A stretch of 64,000 nucleotides of DNA. Source: a bacterium (lineage in GTDB: Bacteria; Zhuqueibacterota; QNDG01; DSAB01). The DNA lies in assembly GCA_011388275.1 (NCBI GenBank), contig DSAB01000121.1, positions 59,579-123,578 of the forward strand. The letters run 5' to 3'. The notes beneath the pieces were generated by a model. It saw nothing but the letters and a program-made list of their open reading frames with translations, was not told the DNA's origin and did not search any database. Both the position numbers and the translations under genes were made by a program. Position 1 is the first letter of the stretch, and every line of letters starts with the position of its first letter. This document shows positions 7,311-16,213 of the stretch, one piece after another.

Positions 7311-8651
7311 TTACAGTTCATCAAACACTTCTTCTTTAAAGGTGATATTCATTTTTTCCAATTCATTTAAAACCGGACGATAGACAGACGGCAATACGGG
7401 TATTTGGATTCCTTTTTCATGAATCTTCCCTTCCAGAATGAGACGGCCGGCAATGGCCGCTGGAAGGCTGACGGTTCGGGCCATGGAGCTGTCTTCTCCG
7501 GGAATTCCGTAATCGATTAATGTGGATGTGATCTTTTCCCTTCGTCCGGATTCGACCCAGACAGCCTCAAAATGGTGATAGAGAACAATCATGTCCCTTT
7601 CGCCCGGCATGTATTGAAGTTTTTCCTGTAAACGGACAGCCAGGATGTCGAGGGGAGAGCAGACACTGCCGGGCAATTTTTCATCGCTGAAAAGACCGAG
7701 CCAGTCCAGGCGGTTCATGAGTTCGGAATCTTCAGACAGATTCCATCGCCGGGCAAGAGCCTTTTTCAGATTCACGTGATTGGGAATGTTTGAGAGAACG
7801 GAGACGAGTTTCCGGTAAGTTCCCTCCCGCAGGTCGCCGCGTTCGTCCAGACTCAACAGTCCCAGTTCCGCCATTTTCTTCCAGGTGTCGCACCACCCCG
7901 GATATCGGAGTGTGCCTCGGAAAAGAGTATCGATTCCCTGCAGTCCGTACAGATCGATGTAAGGAATGGAATTTCGATTGGCATAGGCTTCCAGAGATCC
8001 AATTCCTGCAATATGGAGAAGCCAGTAATGGGCGAACAAGTCCTCGCTTGAGATGTTCACCACAGAGCCGTTTTTCAAATAGCGGGCGGCGTTTCGTCCG
8101 GCCAGCACGACCCCCCTCGGGCTCCAGGAAAACTTGTAACCGAATGGATTGTTATTGGCTTCCGGAGCGGGCAATCCACCGGCATAGGAATAAAATTGTT
8201 GTATATGTCCGCCCCGATCCCGAATGCCGTGTATGATGCGCATCGCGGACATATGATCAATTCCCGGATCGAGACCGATTTCATTCAGTATCAATATACC
8301 GGCATCTTTCGCCTTTTTCGTCAGTGATTTCATGGTGTCGCTGACATAGGAGGCGGTTACCATGTTGACCCGATTTTCAATACACAGTTCGGCAACCCGG
8401 GGGTGATAAGAATAGGGCACAAGGCTGATAACAAGATCCGCCTCTGCTACGGCCCGGTTCAACTCCGGGATGTCCATCATGTCTATTTTAAGGGACCGTC
8501 CTCTGTTGTGGCCGGCCACGAGCCGTTCGGCCTTTTCTTCAATCATGTCGCCGACCCGGACAATCAAATCGCTGTCTTTGAGCAGATAATCGACCAAAGG
8601 GCGGGTGACCATTCCGGCACCCAAAACAAGAACCGTTTTCATATAACGCAT
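7311..8651 (-). CDS. Saccharopine dehydrogenase family protein
   Basis: VLVLGAGMVTRPLVDYL, NEIGLDPGIDHMSAM, SYAGGLPAPEANNNPFGYKFSWSPRGV: saccharopine dehydrogenase hallmarks. Confidence 0.9.
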   Translation of the reverse strand: MRYMKTVLVLGAGMVTRPLVDYLLKDSDLIVRVGDMIEEKAERLVAGHNRGRSLKIDMMDIPELNRAVAEADLVISLVPYSYHPRVAELCIENRVNMVTASYVSDTMKSLTKKAKDAGILILNEIGLDPGIDHMSAMRIIHGIRDRGGHIQQFYSYAGGLPAPEANNNPFGYKFSWSPRGVVLAGRNAARYLKNGSVVNISSEDLFAHYWLLHIAGIGSLEAYANRNSIPYIDLYGLQGIDTLFRGTLRYPGWCDTWKKMAELGLLSLDERGDLREGTYRKLVSVLSNIPNHVNLKKALARRWNLSEDSELMNRLDWLGLFSDEKLPGSVCSPLDILAVRLQEKLQYMPGERDMIVLYHHFEAVWVESGRREKITSTLIDYGIPGEDSSMARTVSLPAAIAGRLILEGKIHEKGIQIPVLPSVYRPVLNELEKMNITFKEEVFDEL

Positions 8652-8655
8652 CGCC

Positions 8656-9966
8656 TCATTGAATAAAAGACTCCATGTACCTGTAGGGCGGAGTGAAACG
8701 CCCCTTGTATAATATGATAGCGCCCTTTATTTCCGGTGACAGGCGGCAATTTTCAAAATCGGCATCCAGGCGTACACCGGCGATTTCGGGAAGATAGGGC
8801 ATCAGGGCGTTGCCGAAATATCTGGATGAAGCGCGAGGCAGTTCACACGGAAGATTGTCGACGGCGAGAACAACCGGACCGTTTCCCTCCACGCCGGATT
8901 GTACGGTGTGGCTGAAAGGATCGTAAACAAAGACCGGATCATCGGGCTGTGTGGATCGCAATGTACATTCAATGGAACCTTCAATGTCACAAGTGATGTC
9001 TCCGATCACTCGAAGCCTTGGAGGATGATGAAGATCATACAATTTCTTAAGAGCCGTTCTGGTGACCAGGCGCGGGTAACGGGGGCTCCAGTATATGGCA
9101 TTGACCAATGCGGTGAGATAGGGAAGAAAGAACTCAAACCGGGATTCGTATTGATCCGGATGGTCATAGTATTCTTGCAGGTCAAAAGGCCTGCGGTCAT
9201 CCCGGCGCCGCATCAGATCTTCTTCGTGAAACACGACCTTGATCAGTTCATTGGGCGGCCCCTTTTCAATGGACTCCCATTCAGTCAGCTGGCTGGGCGG
9301 AAGCTCCCTGTGCGGAAGCAGGTTGAAAATTTCCTGGGCTCCCGAAGAAACATGGCCGTATCCTGAAAAACCGATGACCAAAGGATGCAGCGAACTCAAC
9401 CCGTATTGTCGGATTAGCTGACCGATTTCCAGAACCGCGGACTTGGCTTCAGCCAGAGATCTGTATTGATGGGTCGGTTTCATTCTCTGCAGCGGTGTTC
9501 GGATTCCCTCCCATTCCAGGCGACGGCCCAGAGCCCACAGCGTGTCAATCATGCCCGCCAGGCCTGCGTATCGACCGAAAAAGAGAATCCGCCGTCCGGT
9601 TCGATCAACCGCCTTTTCGTAGTCCAGCAGTGTGCAGCCCAGCTCCGCAAGGCGTCCGAGCATGGGCATGTTCTGTGATTGACCCTTTGTGGTATGTGAA
9701 AAAAACAGGTAAAATTTGGATGGAAGGAAAAACGAGTGCGGCATCTCCTTCACTCCGAGAACAACGGAACACGAAGAAAGATCTTCCTGAACAACCGCTC
9801 CGGCTTTTACGTATTCCTCATCTTTGAATATGCGAATCGATGAGGGCTGAATAACCGTTTGGATTCGATGCATGGTTTTCAGATTGAAAACATGCTTCGG
9901 AGTCAGAGGCACGCGTCTCTCCCACGGGTTTTTGTCTTCTCTGCGTATTCCAATTCGCTTTTCGAT
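8656..9966 (-). CDS. Lysine-ketoglutarate reductase / saccharopine-forming dehydrogenase-like protein (AlaDH/PNT-type N-terminus)
   Basis: Track ORF begins at GTG 9912 (VPLTPKHVF...). In-frame upstream codons encode IEKRIGIRREDKNPWERR, the conserved family N-terminus. A TAA stop lies at about 9993 and there is no ATG/GTG/TTG between it and 9912; ATC at 9966 follows AGGGGAG by 8 nt. Confidence 0.75.
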   Translation of the reverse strand: MEKRIGIRREDKNPWERRVPLTPKHVFNLKTMHRIQTVIQPSSIRIFKDEEYVKAGAVVQEDLSSCSVVLGVKEMPHSFFLPSKFYLFFSHTTKGQSQNMPMLGRLAELGCTLLDYEKAVDRTGRRILFFGRYAGLAGMIDTLWALGRRLEWEGIRTPLQRMKPTHQYRSLAEAKSAVLEIGQLIRQYGLSSLHPLVIGFSGYGHVSSGAQEIFNLLPHRELPPSQLTEWESIEKGPPNELIKVVFHEEDLMRRRDDRRPFDLQEYYDHPDQYESRFEFFLPYLTALVNAIYWSPRYPRLVTRTALKKLYDLHHPPRLRVIGDITCDIEGSIECTLRSTQPDDPVFVYDPFSHTVQSGVEGNGPVVLAVDNLPCELPRASSRYFGNALMPYLPEIAGVRLDADFENCRLSPEIKGAIILYKGRFTPPYRYMESFIQ

Positions 9967-10007
9967 GGTCGCTGCTCCCCTGGATGTGTTTTATGAACAA
10001 GATTAGA

Positions 10008-10036
10008 ATTATACGCATATTCAAAGAAAAAGTCAA
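10008..10036 (-). promoter_or_regulatory. Sigma70-type promoter for the 9966..7311 gene pair
   Basis: Minus strand TTGACT (10036..10031) - 17 nt - TATAAT (10013..10008). Confidence 0.75.
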
Positions 10037-10102: not shown

Positions 10103-13100
10103 TCATCGTCCTGACAGAGAAATGGCGGCGTGAAGGTTAAACGCCTTGATCTGGGTTTTTCCCATACGCTGATCATTTCTTTCTCCCAGCTCAAAACTCA
10201 GTCCTCCCCGCACGGTTTGTGAAAAAGTATAATCAATGCGCGGCTGAAGCGACCAGCTGTCCGTGGAAGACATGGTGGTGTAACCTTTTTTATCTTCAGT
10301 CTTCCTTTCTGTTTTATTGTTTTTCATGGAAAACGAGAGATTGAAGTCAATATTGTTTTCCAGTTTGTTTTTTAAAAAAGGAAGCCGGATTCCCTGTTTC
10401 ATGGAATATCTGGCGGTCAATGAAATGTCTTCGGATGTCTGAAGGCGCTGATCCAGACCGGATGTTTTTTGAACCGTCAGATTTTCGGACAAGCTGTAGT
10501 TGAAGTTGGCCGATATTCCATTCAGAAATGTCATGTTGACACCCAGGAAGGGCCTGAAATCACTGGAAAATGTCTCCTGGGTTATCTGTTGCGACGAACC
10601 GCTCCATGTTTGAGTGTGTTTTCCTGAATATCGATGGTTGATCGAAATGCTGCGGAACACTTTGTTAAACAGCGGAATTTTTTCCAGGCCCTGCCATTGT
10701 ACAGTCCAGTTTGGAAAAGGAATGGAGCCTTCATCCCCGATATTCAAGGTGGATGAAGAGCGGTTTCCTGTTTTCTGAGTGGACAGGGTTTGCGCGTTGC
10801 TCAAAGAGTAGTCGATGCTGGCAGATAACCCTGAAAAAATTCGAAAACCCGTACCCAATGTCACGCTGCGTTCGGTTTTTTCAGAGCTTTGATCGGTAGA
10901 TACATCATCGGCTGTTTTCACGCCCGGATCAAGGTCCCACCCGATCATATAGGCGAAAGAGGGTGCTTCATTATCCAGAATGCCGTATTGGGCATCGGTT
11001 TTGGATTCGCGTATATTGATGCTGATGGGGTCCAGTTTTTCCATCATCGATCCGATGGAGGAAAGAATCGATGTCAGAACGGATCGTCCTTCTTCCTGTT
11101 TGGGGTCCTCGGTATCGGCTTTCTCGTCAGCGGGTCGCTGCCGCGTGACGGGCTGTCGCGGCCCCTGTTCCCGGGCGCCGGGTTTGCTTTTCAGGGACTG
11201 GACCAGGGTTTTAAAATTAAGTGTTCCGCTGAGTGTCAAATTGCTGTTGACACGGGCACTGTTGCCCGATTCCTGAATCTGCGGATTGTTTTCCCACTGA
11301 TAGTTGGCGGTATATTTGAAATTATTTGTCAGCCATGAGGCGATTTTTGGATTAAAAGAGGTGCCGAACTGCTGGGCTTGAGAACGAGCACGCCCGGGAG
11401 AAAGAGACGCGAAGAGCTGATCCCACTGTGACAGCCCCTCTTCCTGCATGTCTGAACGGTAGATGCGTGAAAAATCGAAATTCAGAGCCGAAAAGGGACT
11501 GAAACCGGTTGAAATGTTTCGGGTGAACAGAGCCGTTTTTACGGTGTCCGCTCGTCCGTCCCGATACTCGGTGTTTTTACCGATATCTTTGGCTTCGGCT
11601 TGAAAATCAAATTTGCCGGGCAGATAATAGAAACGTGCCGATGCCAGGCTTTTCAGCAGGCCGCTTTTGCCCAACCAGGAAAAGGGTTCCAGGTAATGGT
11701 CTTTCCCGATGGAGAGACTGTAATTGATATTTCCCTGCCAGCGGGTCTCACCGGCTGCTTCAATCTGGGAATTGCTTTGATCGATGCGCGTGTAGTTGAA
11801 TTTCCCGGCCCATGGGTCCACCAGCAAACGAAACAGGCCGCCCTGTGAGCGTGTTCGCTTTGAAATCGATACATTCAGCGCCTTGCTGGTATTCCGGGTT
11901 CGGATCTGTTCAAGGAAATCCTCGTCAGCCGTCTTCGGGGAAACCAGGATGTCGCTGTTGGGAAAATATTTGGGTGTTTGCATGGTGTTGCTGAATGTCG
12001 CTGTCACGGGAATGGACAATCCCCACGAGGCCGGAAGGATTTTTTCCAGCTTCATGTTGGCGTTGATGTTGGTGCTTTGTGAATGGGATCCCGAACCGAC
12101 CCGTTCCGTAACAGTATGAAAGTCGGCGTCGGTGCGCTGATACTCCGCGCTTAGAGAGATGAAATCGGAAAGAGCCACATCGGCCCGAAGGCGCATGGCC
12201 ATGCCCTTGTCTTTTTGAACGCCGGAAACCCGAAGTTCGTTGATCCAGAGTTCGCCGGAAAAAGGAGCAAGGCCCTTGTTTTTAACGCCGATGATGAGCC
12301 ATCGTATATTCCGCAGAGAGGGCTTGCCTCGAATTCGAAGGCGCTGTCTGTGTGTCAGTGTCGAGTCCAGAGTGTTCAGGCTGTCACGGAGCATTTTGAT
12401 TTTCATTCGGCTCAAGTCATCAAACGAGACTTCTATATCGTTTTCTTTCCAGCCGTCTTGGACCTGTGAAATACGCGTCTCATAATACACTTCTCCTTCC
12501 GTATCGGACCCCCATTGAAGGAAGAATTCGATGGAATCCGATCCGATAATATGATCGGAGCCTCCACCGTGAAGAAACATTTTCAAGCTGCGGTATTGAA
12601 TCAGATCCTGAGGCTGAAAGAACTGCTTTTGGGCGATGGCCTCATATCCGGGAGCCAGATTGTTCAGGTGGATAACGAGCGACTGTTCCTTGGAACGAAT
12701 TTTTTGTACCGGATCCAGTTCTCCCCGGACACCTTCAGGGGGAGTGTAATCCGGATTGTCATGGGTGTTGATGACCGCAAGGGTCATGGTCGAGTCATCA
12801 CCTGAAAAAAAAGTCGAATCCAGTTCCGAACGGACTCCTCTGGGTTTCCATTCATTGCTGGTCAGGTTGATTTCCGCAATGGAGACAGAGGTTTTCCGAT
12901 CCAGACTGTCGATCCATATACGGGCATATTCAATGCGGGACATATCGGGGTTCTTGATGGTGCGGCCTGACTCCAGAGGGATCCGGTACAGCCTCCAGCC
13001 GTCTTCAGGATAATCGCCGTTTTCATCCTTGATGCCGCCGACGATTAAAGAAGTATCCGGGTGCTGCAGTTCCAGGGAGAGTGAATATTCAAAATAGTTG

Positions 13101-16100
13101 TTGCTCAGATCCACATCCCCGTTGCCGTTCAGGTCTTCGGTATCGGGTGTCTGGGTGCCATCGTTGATGTTCCCTTCAGTTCCGTTTATCTGATCATAAA
13201 CATTGCTGCGGTTTTGGTATTTAAAATCATCATAGCTCCAGGGCTCATTGGGCTGTTTGATTCCGTCTCCATTCAGATCCCAGAAGTCGTAGGGGATGCC
13301 TCTGGCCACCCGGCGGCCATCCATTTGCTCATAGACCACATAGGCGTCTTCATGAGGATGAAAAAGAGACGGGGGGTCGTCGCCCATCATGCCGTCCAGG
13401 CCGGTATCTTCACCGATGTCGAGCAGATTGTTTTGGATCTCGGTGTCGGTGGCCTTGTCTTCCGTGTCCAGGCGGCCGTTGGGAATTACATCTTCGGAGA
13501 TCTGTCCCAGATCCACGTGAAGTCTTCCGCGGGTTCCTCTGACCCAGATTTCCAGAAAGCGGCTGTCTGTTTGATCCGCATATCCCGTTGGAAGGAAACG
13601 CATAATGCCGCCCCAGGATTCCCGGGTTTTTGTGATCGTGGGATTGGGTGTAAATTCGAGAGTCAGCACCTGTACCTGGTTGCTGCCGCCGTAATTGGTG
13701 GTGGTTTCCCGGTTTGGCCATATATCCCTGATGGGTACCATCTCTATCGGGTTGTACCAGATCAGGTGTCCACGGGCAAGAAGAGAATGCGGAGTGTTCT
13801 CATCCTTTAAGGGCTGGGAAGCCATTGACCAGTTTTTTCTCATGACGCCCAGAGAAGTTTGCCTTCTGGCGCTCTCGAAATCATCCAGATAGGCGACACC
13901 GTCCCGGTCGCCGGTGGAACGGCTGTTGAGTGTGTTGGGATTCGGAATGATTTGAGCGATTTCACCTTCAATGGAAATCGTCGACGGAGCGGAAGCCTGA
14001 ATAATCGGCAAAGCATCCAGTGCCCGTGTTAAAAAAGCGGGTTCGAAATACAAAGCGGTATTGACGTCCCAGACCATATTCTCCATGGGTGCTTCCTTGC
14101 CGACGCGGATTCGGCGCTCCAGAATTCTTTGATTCATATACAGGAAGGTGCCTCCGATGAAGGACCGCCTGTTTCCCGTTTCCCACAAGGTGTATTCGGC
14201 CCGGGCGCCCAACAAGGATTTTTTATCGATCGTGAAAAGCTGCTGCGATTCATAATTAATCTCGATCTCCGCATTGGGATTGGAAGCATTCGGGTTGAGC
14301 ATGGTCAGGGAGCCGAACATGTAATCGATCGTGTAATCCACGTCTTTGGTCATTCGAACCCCGTCGAGATAGACCTCTTCCGTTCCTTCAATGATATTCA
14401 TGTCCAGATTAAAACTGGTGGAGCGTCGAGACGATTTGACTTCAAGATAGAACTTGCTTTGCTGGTGAATATAATTGGTGTTTGTCGTATCGTAGAGTGC
14501 CGGCGTCCGCTGTGCTTCGGGAAGGGGTGATTGAGGATCCGTCGGGTCAAAGGGTTTCAAATCGGGGAAGATCAATTCACCCCGCCGCTTGTTGATGATG
14601 TTGGGATTGTTGTCGATGGCCCCGTCGGGATTGGGCCTGCCGTTTTTATCGAAGCGATCCAAACCGAACAGCTCCAGATAGCTCACGGTTTTTCCGTTTA
14701 CCTGGGTGGACAGTTTTGGGTCACCATCGGTGCTTTTAAAATAGATGTTGACTTCAAGGCCCTCATCGAACTCTTCCTGGGTGATGTCCCGAATACCCAG
14801 ACTGTATACGTTTTTCCATTCCAGATTCCAGGTATAATCAGCCGGCCTGGGAGTCCGGGGTTTGATCATCTTGAAAACCGGTGCCTGGGATGTGTCCGCT
14901 AAACCGGAAATAAAAGATCCCGCCTGGTTCCCCGAGGTATCACGAAATGCAACGGCCAGAATTTCTCCCTCCTGAAGCGGAGTGTTCATGTATATATATC
15001 CCAATTCGGGCTGAATAAAATAGTCATCCAGCGGGTTGAGACGAAGAAAATAGCCTTTATAAGTCTCTTCGTCATCGAGATTCAATGTGTCGGGCTCGCC
15101 GGTTCGTGTGGCCCAGGCCCTGATGGATCCATCCTGGAGCTTGTAGTTTGCGCCCGATTTGTAGACTTCGATGTCTGTGACAATGCGTGACGGGTCGATA
15201 ATATGTTTGCCGCTTTCGTCGTAGTTGGGGAATTGATCCCGGTAAAAATAATCGACAAAGAAATAAGTATGCCGCCGGTATTCATAATCCTGAATCTGGA
15301 TCAACTGATCTTCTTTTCCGCCCTTGAATGATTTTTTCTTTTTTTCGCCTTTCTGCATACTGGCGATAGCTGTCAGGTCAAGATTGCCGATTTTAAACTG
15401 AGATTTGATGCCGAAAAGGCCCGAGTTTTGGGTACTGAACGTAACGAAACGAGTTGAAGGGAGAGAGAGAGAGACATTGCCGGCTTCGATAGACTGTATG
15501 ATCGCATCTTCATCTCCCCTGTATTCCAGCTTGACCGCATTTTCAAATTCAAATGGACGTTCGCTGTCCTGGTCGACAAATATCGAAACCCTCTCACCGA
15601 TTTTCCCCTGCACATGAAAACGCTGGGTCTGCTTCATCTGAAAGCTGGTATTGGGCCTTCGGTTATCCGCGGTTTGTTTCTGCGATCGGGTTTCGTTGCG
15701 CATTCCGCCGTCGATCGTGATGTTTCCATCCACGCGAAGACTCAGCCGGTCTCCTCCGAAGGCGCGGCGGAAAGCCTCACTGCGAATCCGAGGGGATTCG
15801 AGAGTCAGTCCGCTGGCAGCGGGTCCCCGCGATTCGGGAAGGACATGACTTCGTGCATGCTCCTGCCAGAGAAGAGACGAACGGCGCTCGATTTGGTACT
15901 GGGAAAAATCATCCAGAGAAAGGCCGATGGGCCGTTCGAGAAAGACGGGTCCCGATTTCAGGGACAAAAGAACAGAGAGAGAATCGAACTCCACGGAGCG
16001 ATTCAGGGAACGAGGAATAAGAACGTGCGTATACTCGTGAGGAGGCCACAGTGAAAGCAGGGAGGGTCTTTGAAAAAGATCCAGGGAGGAAACCGGCTTC

Positions 16101-16213
16101 CAGAGACCGGGAAGGCGAAACCCCATTTCCGCGCACGGTGAAGCGGCTATGAAAATGATCGAAAAGACGGCAATCAGAACCTTTTTCGATCTTGTGAACT
16201 GATGCGAAATCAT
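10103..16213 (-). CDS. sprA: SprA-family outer-membrane protein (type IX secretion / gliding-associated)
   Basis: 2036 aa; SprA-like LRVDGNITIDGGMRNE, QKQTQRFHVQGKIGERVSIFVDQDSERPFEFENAVKLEYRGDEDAIIQSIEAGNVSLSLP, AYLDDFESARR, and a long C-terminal barrel-like region. Confidence 0.85.
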   Translation of the reverse strand: MISHQFTRSKKVLIAVFSIIFIAASPCAEMGFRLPGLWKPVSSLDLFQRPSLLSLWPPHEYTHVLIPRSLNRSVEFDSLSVLLSLKSGPVFLERPIGLSLDDFSQYQIERRSSLLWQEHARSHVLPESRGPAASGLTLESPRIRSEAFRRAFGGDRLSLRVDGNITIDGGMRNETRSQKQTADNRRPNTSFQMKQTQRFHVQGKIGERVSIFVDQDSERPFEFENAVKLEYRGDEDAIIQSIEAGNVSLSLPSTRFVTFSTQNSGLFGIKSQFKIGNLDLTAIASMQKGEKKKKSFKGGKEDQLIQIQDYEYRRHTYFFVDYFYRDQFPNYDESGKHIIDPSRIVTDIEVYKSGANYKLQDGSIRAWATRTGEPDTLNLDDEETYKGYFLRLNPLDDYFIQPELGYIYMNTPLQEGEILAVAFRDTSGNQAGSFISGLADTSQAPVFKMIKPRTPRPADYTWNLEWKNVYSLGIRDITQEEFDEGLEVNIYFKSTDGDPKLSTQVNGKTVSYLELFGLDRFDKNGRPNPDGAIDNNPNIINKRRGELIFPDLKPFDPTDPQSPLPEAQRTPALYDTTNTNYIHQQSKFYLEVKSSRRSTSFNLDMNIIEGTEEVYLDGVRMTKDVDYTIDYMFGSLTMLNPNASNPNAEIEINYESQQLFTIDKKSLLGARAEYTLWETGNRRSFIGGTFLYMNQRILERRIRVGKEAPMENMVWDVNTALYFEPAFLTRALDALPIIQASAPSTISIEGEIAQIIPNPNTLNSRSTGDRDGVAYLDDFESARRQTSLGVMRKNWSMASQPLKDENTPHSLLARGHLIWYNPIEMVPIRDIWPNRETTTNYGGSNQVQVLTLEFTPNPTITKTRESWGGIMRFLPTGYADQTDSRFLEIWVRGTRGRLHVDLGQISEDVIPNGRLDTEDKATDTEIQNNLLDIGEDTGLDGMMGDDPPSLFHPHEDAYVVYEQMDGRRVARGIPYDFWDLNGDGIKQPNEPWSYDDFKYQNRSNVYDQINGTEGNINDGTQTPDTEDLNGNGDVDLSNNYFEYSLSLELQHPDTSLIVGGIKDENGDYPEDGWRLYRIPLESGRTIKNPDMSRIEYARIWIDSLDRKTSVSIAEINLTSNEWKPRGVRSELDSTFFSGDDSTMTLAVINTHDNPDYTPPEGVRGELDPVQKIRSKEQSLVIHLNNLAPGYEAIAQKQFFQPQDLIQYRSLKMFLHGGGSDHIIGSDSIEFFLQWGSDTEGEVYYETRISQVQDGWKENDIEVSFDDLSRMKIKMLRDSLNTLDSTLTHRQRLRIRGKPSLRNIRWLIIGVKNKGLAPFSGELWINELRVSGVQKDKGMAMRLRADVALSDFISLSAEYQRTDADFHTVTERVGSGSHSQSTNINANMKLEKILPASWGLSIPVTATFSNTMQTPKYFPNSDILVSPKTADEDFLEQIRTRNTSKALNVSISKRTRSQGGLFRLLVDPWAGKFNYTRIDQSNSQIEAAGETRWQGNINYSLSIGKDHYLEPFSWLGKSGLLKSLASARFYYLPGKFDFQAEAKDIGKNTEYRDGRADTVKTALFTRNISTGFSPFSALNFDFSRIYRSDMQEEGLSQWDQLFASLSPGRARSQAQQFGTSFNPKIASWLTNNFKYTANYQWENNPQIQESGNSARVNSNLTLSGTLNFKTLVQSLKSKPGAREQGPRQPVTRQRPADEKADTEDPKQEEGRSVLTSILSSIGSMMEKLDPISINIRESKTDAQYGILDNEAPSFAYMIGWDLDPGVKTADDVSTDQSSEKTERSVTLGTGFRIFSGLSASIDYSLSNAQTLSTQKTGNRSSSTLNIGDEGSIPFPNWTVQWQGLEKIPLFNKVFRSISINHRYSGKHTQTWSGSSQQITQETFSSDFRPFLGVNMTFLNGISANFNYSLSENLTVQKTSGLDQRLQTSEDISLTARYSMKQGIRLPFLKNKLENNIDFNLSFSMKNNKTERKTEDKKGYTTMSSTDSWSLQPRIDYTFSQTVRGGLSFELGERNDQRMGKTQIKAFNLHAAISLSGR

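Follow-up and report, generated by a model that had tools for sequence, protein, structure and literature searches.

An apparent AUC start codon in a bacterial lysine-ketoglutarate reductase gene

Where does translation begin in a gene whose conserved N-terminus precedes the first ATG, GTG or TTG of its frame? This question is raised by a lysine-ketoglutarate reductase (LKR) gene in the 64,000-nucleotide stretch of bacterial DNA analysed here (the window). What is unusual about the gene is that the 18 codons before a GTG encode the conserved N-terminus, and that an ATC occupies the alignment column at which 21 of the 39 relatives compared have their start. The first-pass annotation had proposed the ATC as a non-canonical start codon. 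Our analysis indicates that the LKR gene probably belongs to a two-gene saccharopine operon and is translated from the AUC at 9966-9964, with AGGGGAG as its Shine-Dalgarno (SD) sequence and a leader of about 35 nt.

The two genes of the putative operon are as follows.

7311 to 8651, minus strand: saccharopine dehydrogenase gene, downstream of LKR (PF16653, E=9.9e-83, and PF03435)
8656 to 9966, minus strand: LKR gene, 436 codons plus TGA (PF05222 and PF01262; match to the AASS reductase domain)

The LKR frame runs from the ATC through 435 more sense codons to a TGA at 8658-8656, and is intact and alignable to its end. Its product contains both the N and C domains of the AlaDh/PNT type (PF05222, 72.4 bits; PF01262, 30.8 bits; each above its cut-off), and residues 5-433 align with the reductase domain of human alpha-aminoadipic semialdehyde synthase (AASS; 8e8u) with E=5.6e-85. 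The two proteins are homologous and share a conserved RREDxNxWERR start, but LKR, unlike the AASS domain, is a stand-alone bacterial gene beside a separate saccharopine dehydrogenase gene. Together, the LKR and saccharopine dehydrogenase genes make up the saccharopine route of lysine degradation. Saccharopine-forming activity of the LKR product is predicted, and the neighbouring saccharopine dehydrogenase gene is supportive of this prediction. LKR is present once in the 2.82 Mb draft genome (155 contigs, 96.5% complete) and is missing from many genomes of the order.

Three features define the choice of start site.

9964 to 9966, minus strand: ATC, proposed LKR start codon, column 1 of the family alignment
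9913 to 9966, minus strand: 18 codons, IEKRIGIRREDKNPWERR, the conserved N-terminus that would be lost with a GTG start (from the alignment; includes invariant E10 and R18)
9910 to 9912, minus strand: GTG, first canonical codon in the LKR frame, judged to be an internal Val; its own SD would be GGGAG at 9923-9919, -7.3 kcal/mol

We compared the LKR N-terminus with those of 39 relatives from several phyla (32-56% identity). A canonical start codon (ATG, GTG or TTG) lies exactly at the ATC column in 21 of these and within columns -12 to +5 of it in all 39; the two closest relatives (56% identity) have GTG at the ATC column. The alignment bears out the earlier claim that the frame upstream of the GTG encodes the conserved N-terminus of the family: the stretch IGIRREDK, within residues 1-18, is conserved, and E10, R18 and K73 are invariant in a 14-sequence alignment. 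R18 aligns with an Arg in human AASS and in yeast saccharopine dehydrogenase, and we take it to be the position of alanine dehydrogenase Arg15, the substrate-binding Arg of the superfamily. In alanine dehydrogenase, Arg15 binds the substrate carboxylate. The N-terminal Arg and conserved Lys are thus found as R18 and K73, with R18 present only if translation starts before the GTG. Because the equivalent of Arg15 would be lost, a 418-aa LKR product should be inactive. The claim of a non-canonical start is therefore supported both by relatives that start at the exact codon and by the invariant R18 that a GTG start would delete, and we consider it very likely, as judged from these alignments, that the start position is the ATC. 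Relatives do have canonical codons at that position, the outcome named at first as a sign of sequencing error, but at 32-56% identity they cannot distinguish a wrong base from a change specific to this lineage. The depth of the first canonical start was rejected as evidence: a distance of 26 codons is not unusual in this genome (90th percentile of 28 among 1539 ORFs).

Other start sites in or near the frame have their own merits. Translation from the GTG at 9912 would give a protein 18 residues shorter from a canonical codon, and the GGGAG 6 nt ahead of it has a predicted SD energy about equal to that of the ATC. However, such a start would delete the first conserved strand together with R18, it would lie at a position used by 0 of the 39 relatives, all of which start between columns -12 and +5, and the GGGAG is made of conserved Trp-Glu-Arg codons, a caveat that had been raised from the outset and that we confirmed. 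We regard the GTG start as very improbable. The ATT at codon 5 and the ATA at codon 7, previously listed as alternatives, are indeed in the LKR frame, and the frame of an out-of-frame ATG at 10018 is open into the LKR gene, such that a frameshift could join the two. Yet the SD energies are weak at the ATT (0.1 kcal/mol) and at the ATA (-1.8 kcal/mol), and the conserved N-terminus can be read without any frameshift. Frameshifting from the ATG at 10018-10016 was rejected, as this codon is located between the promoter hexamers, outside the likely transcript and in another frame. A start at any of these three codons seems even more remote than one at the GTG.

The sequence upstream of the ATC contains the elements expected of a start site.

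9975 to 9981, minus strand: Shine-Dalgarno AGGGGAG, with an 8-nt spacer to the ATC; predicted duplex -7.5 kcal/mol
9991 to 9993, minus strand: in-frame TAA that closes the LKR frame upstream, 27 nt above the ATC
10008 to 10036, minus strand: putative sigma-70-like promoter TTGACT-N17-TATAAT, 11/12 consensus matches

All three had been described in the first-pass annotation and were found where it placed them, and the eight codons between the TAA and the ATC (AAC ACA TCC AGG GGA GCA GCG ACC) contain no ATG, GTG or TTG. The conserved N-terminus therefore begins at the ATC without a usable canonical start, and the SD stands at a working distance. Only 5.7% of randomly chosen internal in-frame positions have an SD this strong, against 33% of first-ATG starts; the LKR SD is weaker than those of infC and of the MeaB and 525-aa protein genes described below. 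These energies were computed with an assumed standard 16S tail; the organism's own 16S, which would give the true anti-SD, was sought in the draft genome and is absent. Because 0.5 promoter-like sites are expected per shuffled region, the TTGACT-N17-TATAAT sequence is only modest evidence of a promoter. It places the likely transcript start near 10001, which would leave a leader of about 35 nt before the ATC. Coupling of LKR translation to that of the preceding gene, a 2036-aa ORF, is unlikely because that ORF ends at 10103. We found no regulatory hairpin at the LKR start, where the predicted RNA structure is weaker than that of shuffles (z +1.47).

We propose that the AUC would be decoded by the normal initiator tRNA despite a mismatch at the third position, and that the AGGGGAG on its short leader would assist initiation. 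Of the two CAU tRNAs in the analysed DNA, neither looks like an initiator. Initiation at the AUC would probably be inefficient and opposed by IF3, with low expression and IF3 sensitivity as the expected outcome, and the weak start may be either useful, by limiting lysine degradation, or merely tolerated.

Does this genome use such codons elsewhere? infC is a clean control for AUH initiation. The genome's own infC (L052/L069, G000:C144) has GGAGG-N7-ATT-AAA-AAG at its start, and across the phylum (L233-L261) infC starts with ATT or ATC (G022, G029 and G033 are among those with ATC). Therefore, the clade initiates at AUU/AUC, and the draft shows an AUH codon where one is expected. We also searched 1539 coding-like ORFs, from a covered 2.23 Mb (79%) of the genome, for ATT, ATC, ATA, CTG, AAG, ACG or AGG codons that follow an SD and come before the first canonical start. 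Two strong cases were found, each an SD-preceded ATT.

L111:4636-4638 (G000:C52), plus strand: ATT at the start position of a MeaB GTPase gene; SD GGGAGGGC, -10.8
L057:14307-14309 (G000:C1:157807-157809), minus strand: ATT at the start position of a gene for a conserved 525-aa protein; SD CGGAGGAC, -9.5

The MeaB ATT/SD site overlaps the stop codon of a gene for cobalamin adenosyltransferase, and the next canonical codon is 41 codons on, inside the conserved protein; 8 of 26 MeaB relatives have an ATG at the codon before the ATT column, and in the rest a canonical codon is close by. The 525-aa protein has no Pfam match, and its next canonical codon is 31 codons on. Its relatives have an ATG at the ATT column in 9 of 28 cases; in the remainder a canonical codon falls between columns -3 and +4. 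About twenty other SD-preceded ATH, ANG or CTG candidates, including Lgt, Pth, CdsA, TilS, GrpE, DXS and NUDIX, were rejected as their domains begin after the canonical start, and these serve as negative controls. A screen of paralogues for further AUH starts gave no additional convincing case. Genome-wide, the codons that follow SDs show no excess of ATH over others, which points to a handful of genes rather than a change of code. The codon-based screen gave low scores to LKR and infC; it is thus insensitive, and more cases may exist. Altogether, an apparent AUU/AUC start is seen in at least three genes of this genome besides infC, LKR among them. It is conceivable, though we consider it doubtful, that the AUU/AUC starts of a few metabolic genes (those for lysine degradation, MeaB and the 525-aa protein) are co-tuned by IF3 or the state of translation, and that their true number is higher, as weak cases escape the screen.

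The remaining question is whether the codon is truly ATC. That the AUC is genuine in the organism is supported but not proven, coming from a single draft genome whose compared relatives have at most 56% protein identity. A consensus error or a strain mixture could conceal an ATG at 9966-9964, from which the ATC differs by one base change, and all of the compared relatives (32-56% identity) have a canonical codon. Such changes do occur in the assembly or the organism: the same contig as LKR contains an in-frame TGA in an otherwise continuous frame (L053:8599-8601, plus strand, G000:C1), a suspicious codon that could reflect an error, decay of the gene or recoding of the stop. Taking one or two nonsense events at a simulated detection rate of 26% gives a rate of about 1-2e-4 per base; over 1539 genes, 0.15-0.3 ATG-to-ATH errors would then be expected. 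The probability that one or more start codons changed in this way is 14-27%, a rough estimate that treats errors as random although the candidates were not drawn blindly. By the same estimate, however, three such errors would have P of about 5e-4 to 4e-3, and the three genes observed are independent, lie on two contigs and all have AUH, none ANG or CTG, in a draft that correctly gives ATT for infC. We therefore find an error or mixture unlikely. A search of plasmids and viral contigs gave no near DNA matches. Hardly more probable is a real ATG- or GTG-to-ATC mutation that merely weakens LKR, as early decay with no regulatory use. The ATC is limited to its own lineage as far as seen among the compared relatives, and the absence of LKR from so many genomes of the order marks it as dispensable in the clade. 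On the other hand, the 436-codon frame, the promoter, the SD and the downstream partner gene are all intact, and the MeaB and 525-aa protein genes share the AUH pattern. A weakening mutation is also compatible with AUC initiation, so that it does not exclude the start proposed here.

To our knowledge, non-canonical starts outside infC are known in only a handful of bacterial genes, and we know of no report of an AUH start for a lysine-ketoglutarate reductase. infC resembles LKR in having an AUH codon behind an SD, with ATT or ATC used in the same phylum, but infC is autoregulated and its AUH codon conserved, whereas LKR encodes a metabolic enzyme with an AUC in one genome only. The infC start is ATT in E. 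coli and ATC in Streptomyces (PMC5472188), and IF3 acts in vitro against mismatches at the third base (PMC10158994). S. aureus cvfC1 (AUU), ccpN (AUA) and citZ (AUA) are, like LKR, non-infC genes with AUH starts and an SD, and citZ is a particularly close likeness, being a metabolic enzyme with an AUA confined to one lineage (PMC13009471). At the S. aureus AUU/AUA sites, expression in poor medium is about 10% of that from AUG, and ccpN reaches up to 30% in rich medium (PMC13009471). Those starts were mapped by ribosome profiling and reporters, while that of LKR is predicted from sequence; they have extended, strong SDs and include no AUC, whereas LKR has a moderate SD and an AUC (PMC13009471). 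Streptomyces sigR likewise has a rare non-infC start that was misannotated by gene finders; unlike LKR, it is a regulatory gene with a GTC start, and its repression by IF3 was shown by experiment (PMC5472188).

AUH starts are thus an already known, rare kind, to which LKR adds a case with parallels elsewhere in its genome. Gene finders overlook such starts and would here shorten LKR by 18 residues, the 525-aa protein by 31 and MeaB by about 40. If the starts are real, three metabolic genes in a little-studied phylum would be under weak, probably IF3-gated initiation, and a simple screen for a conserved N-terminus and an SD with an AUH codon, without a canonical start, would uncover further cases.

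Separately, the 2036-aa ORF that precedes LKR (window 10103-16213, minus strand) looks by eye like the gliding/type IX secretion protein SprA. A PorV-family protein (L136) is encoded elsewhere in the genome, and together with the SprA-like ORF it suggests type IX secretion.
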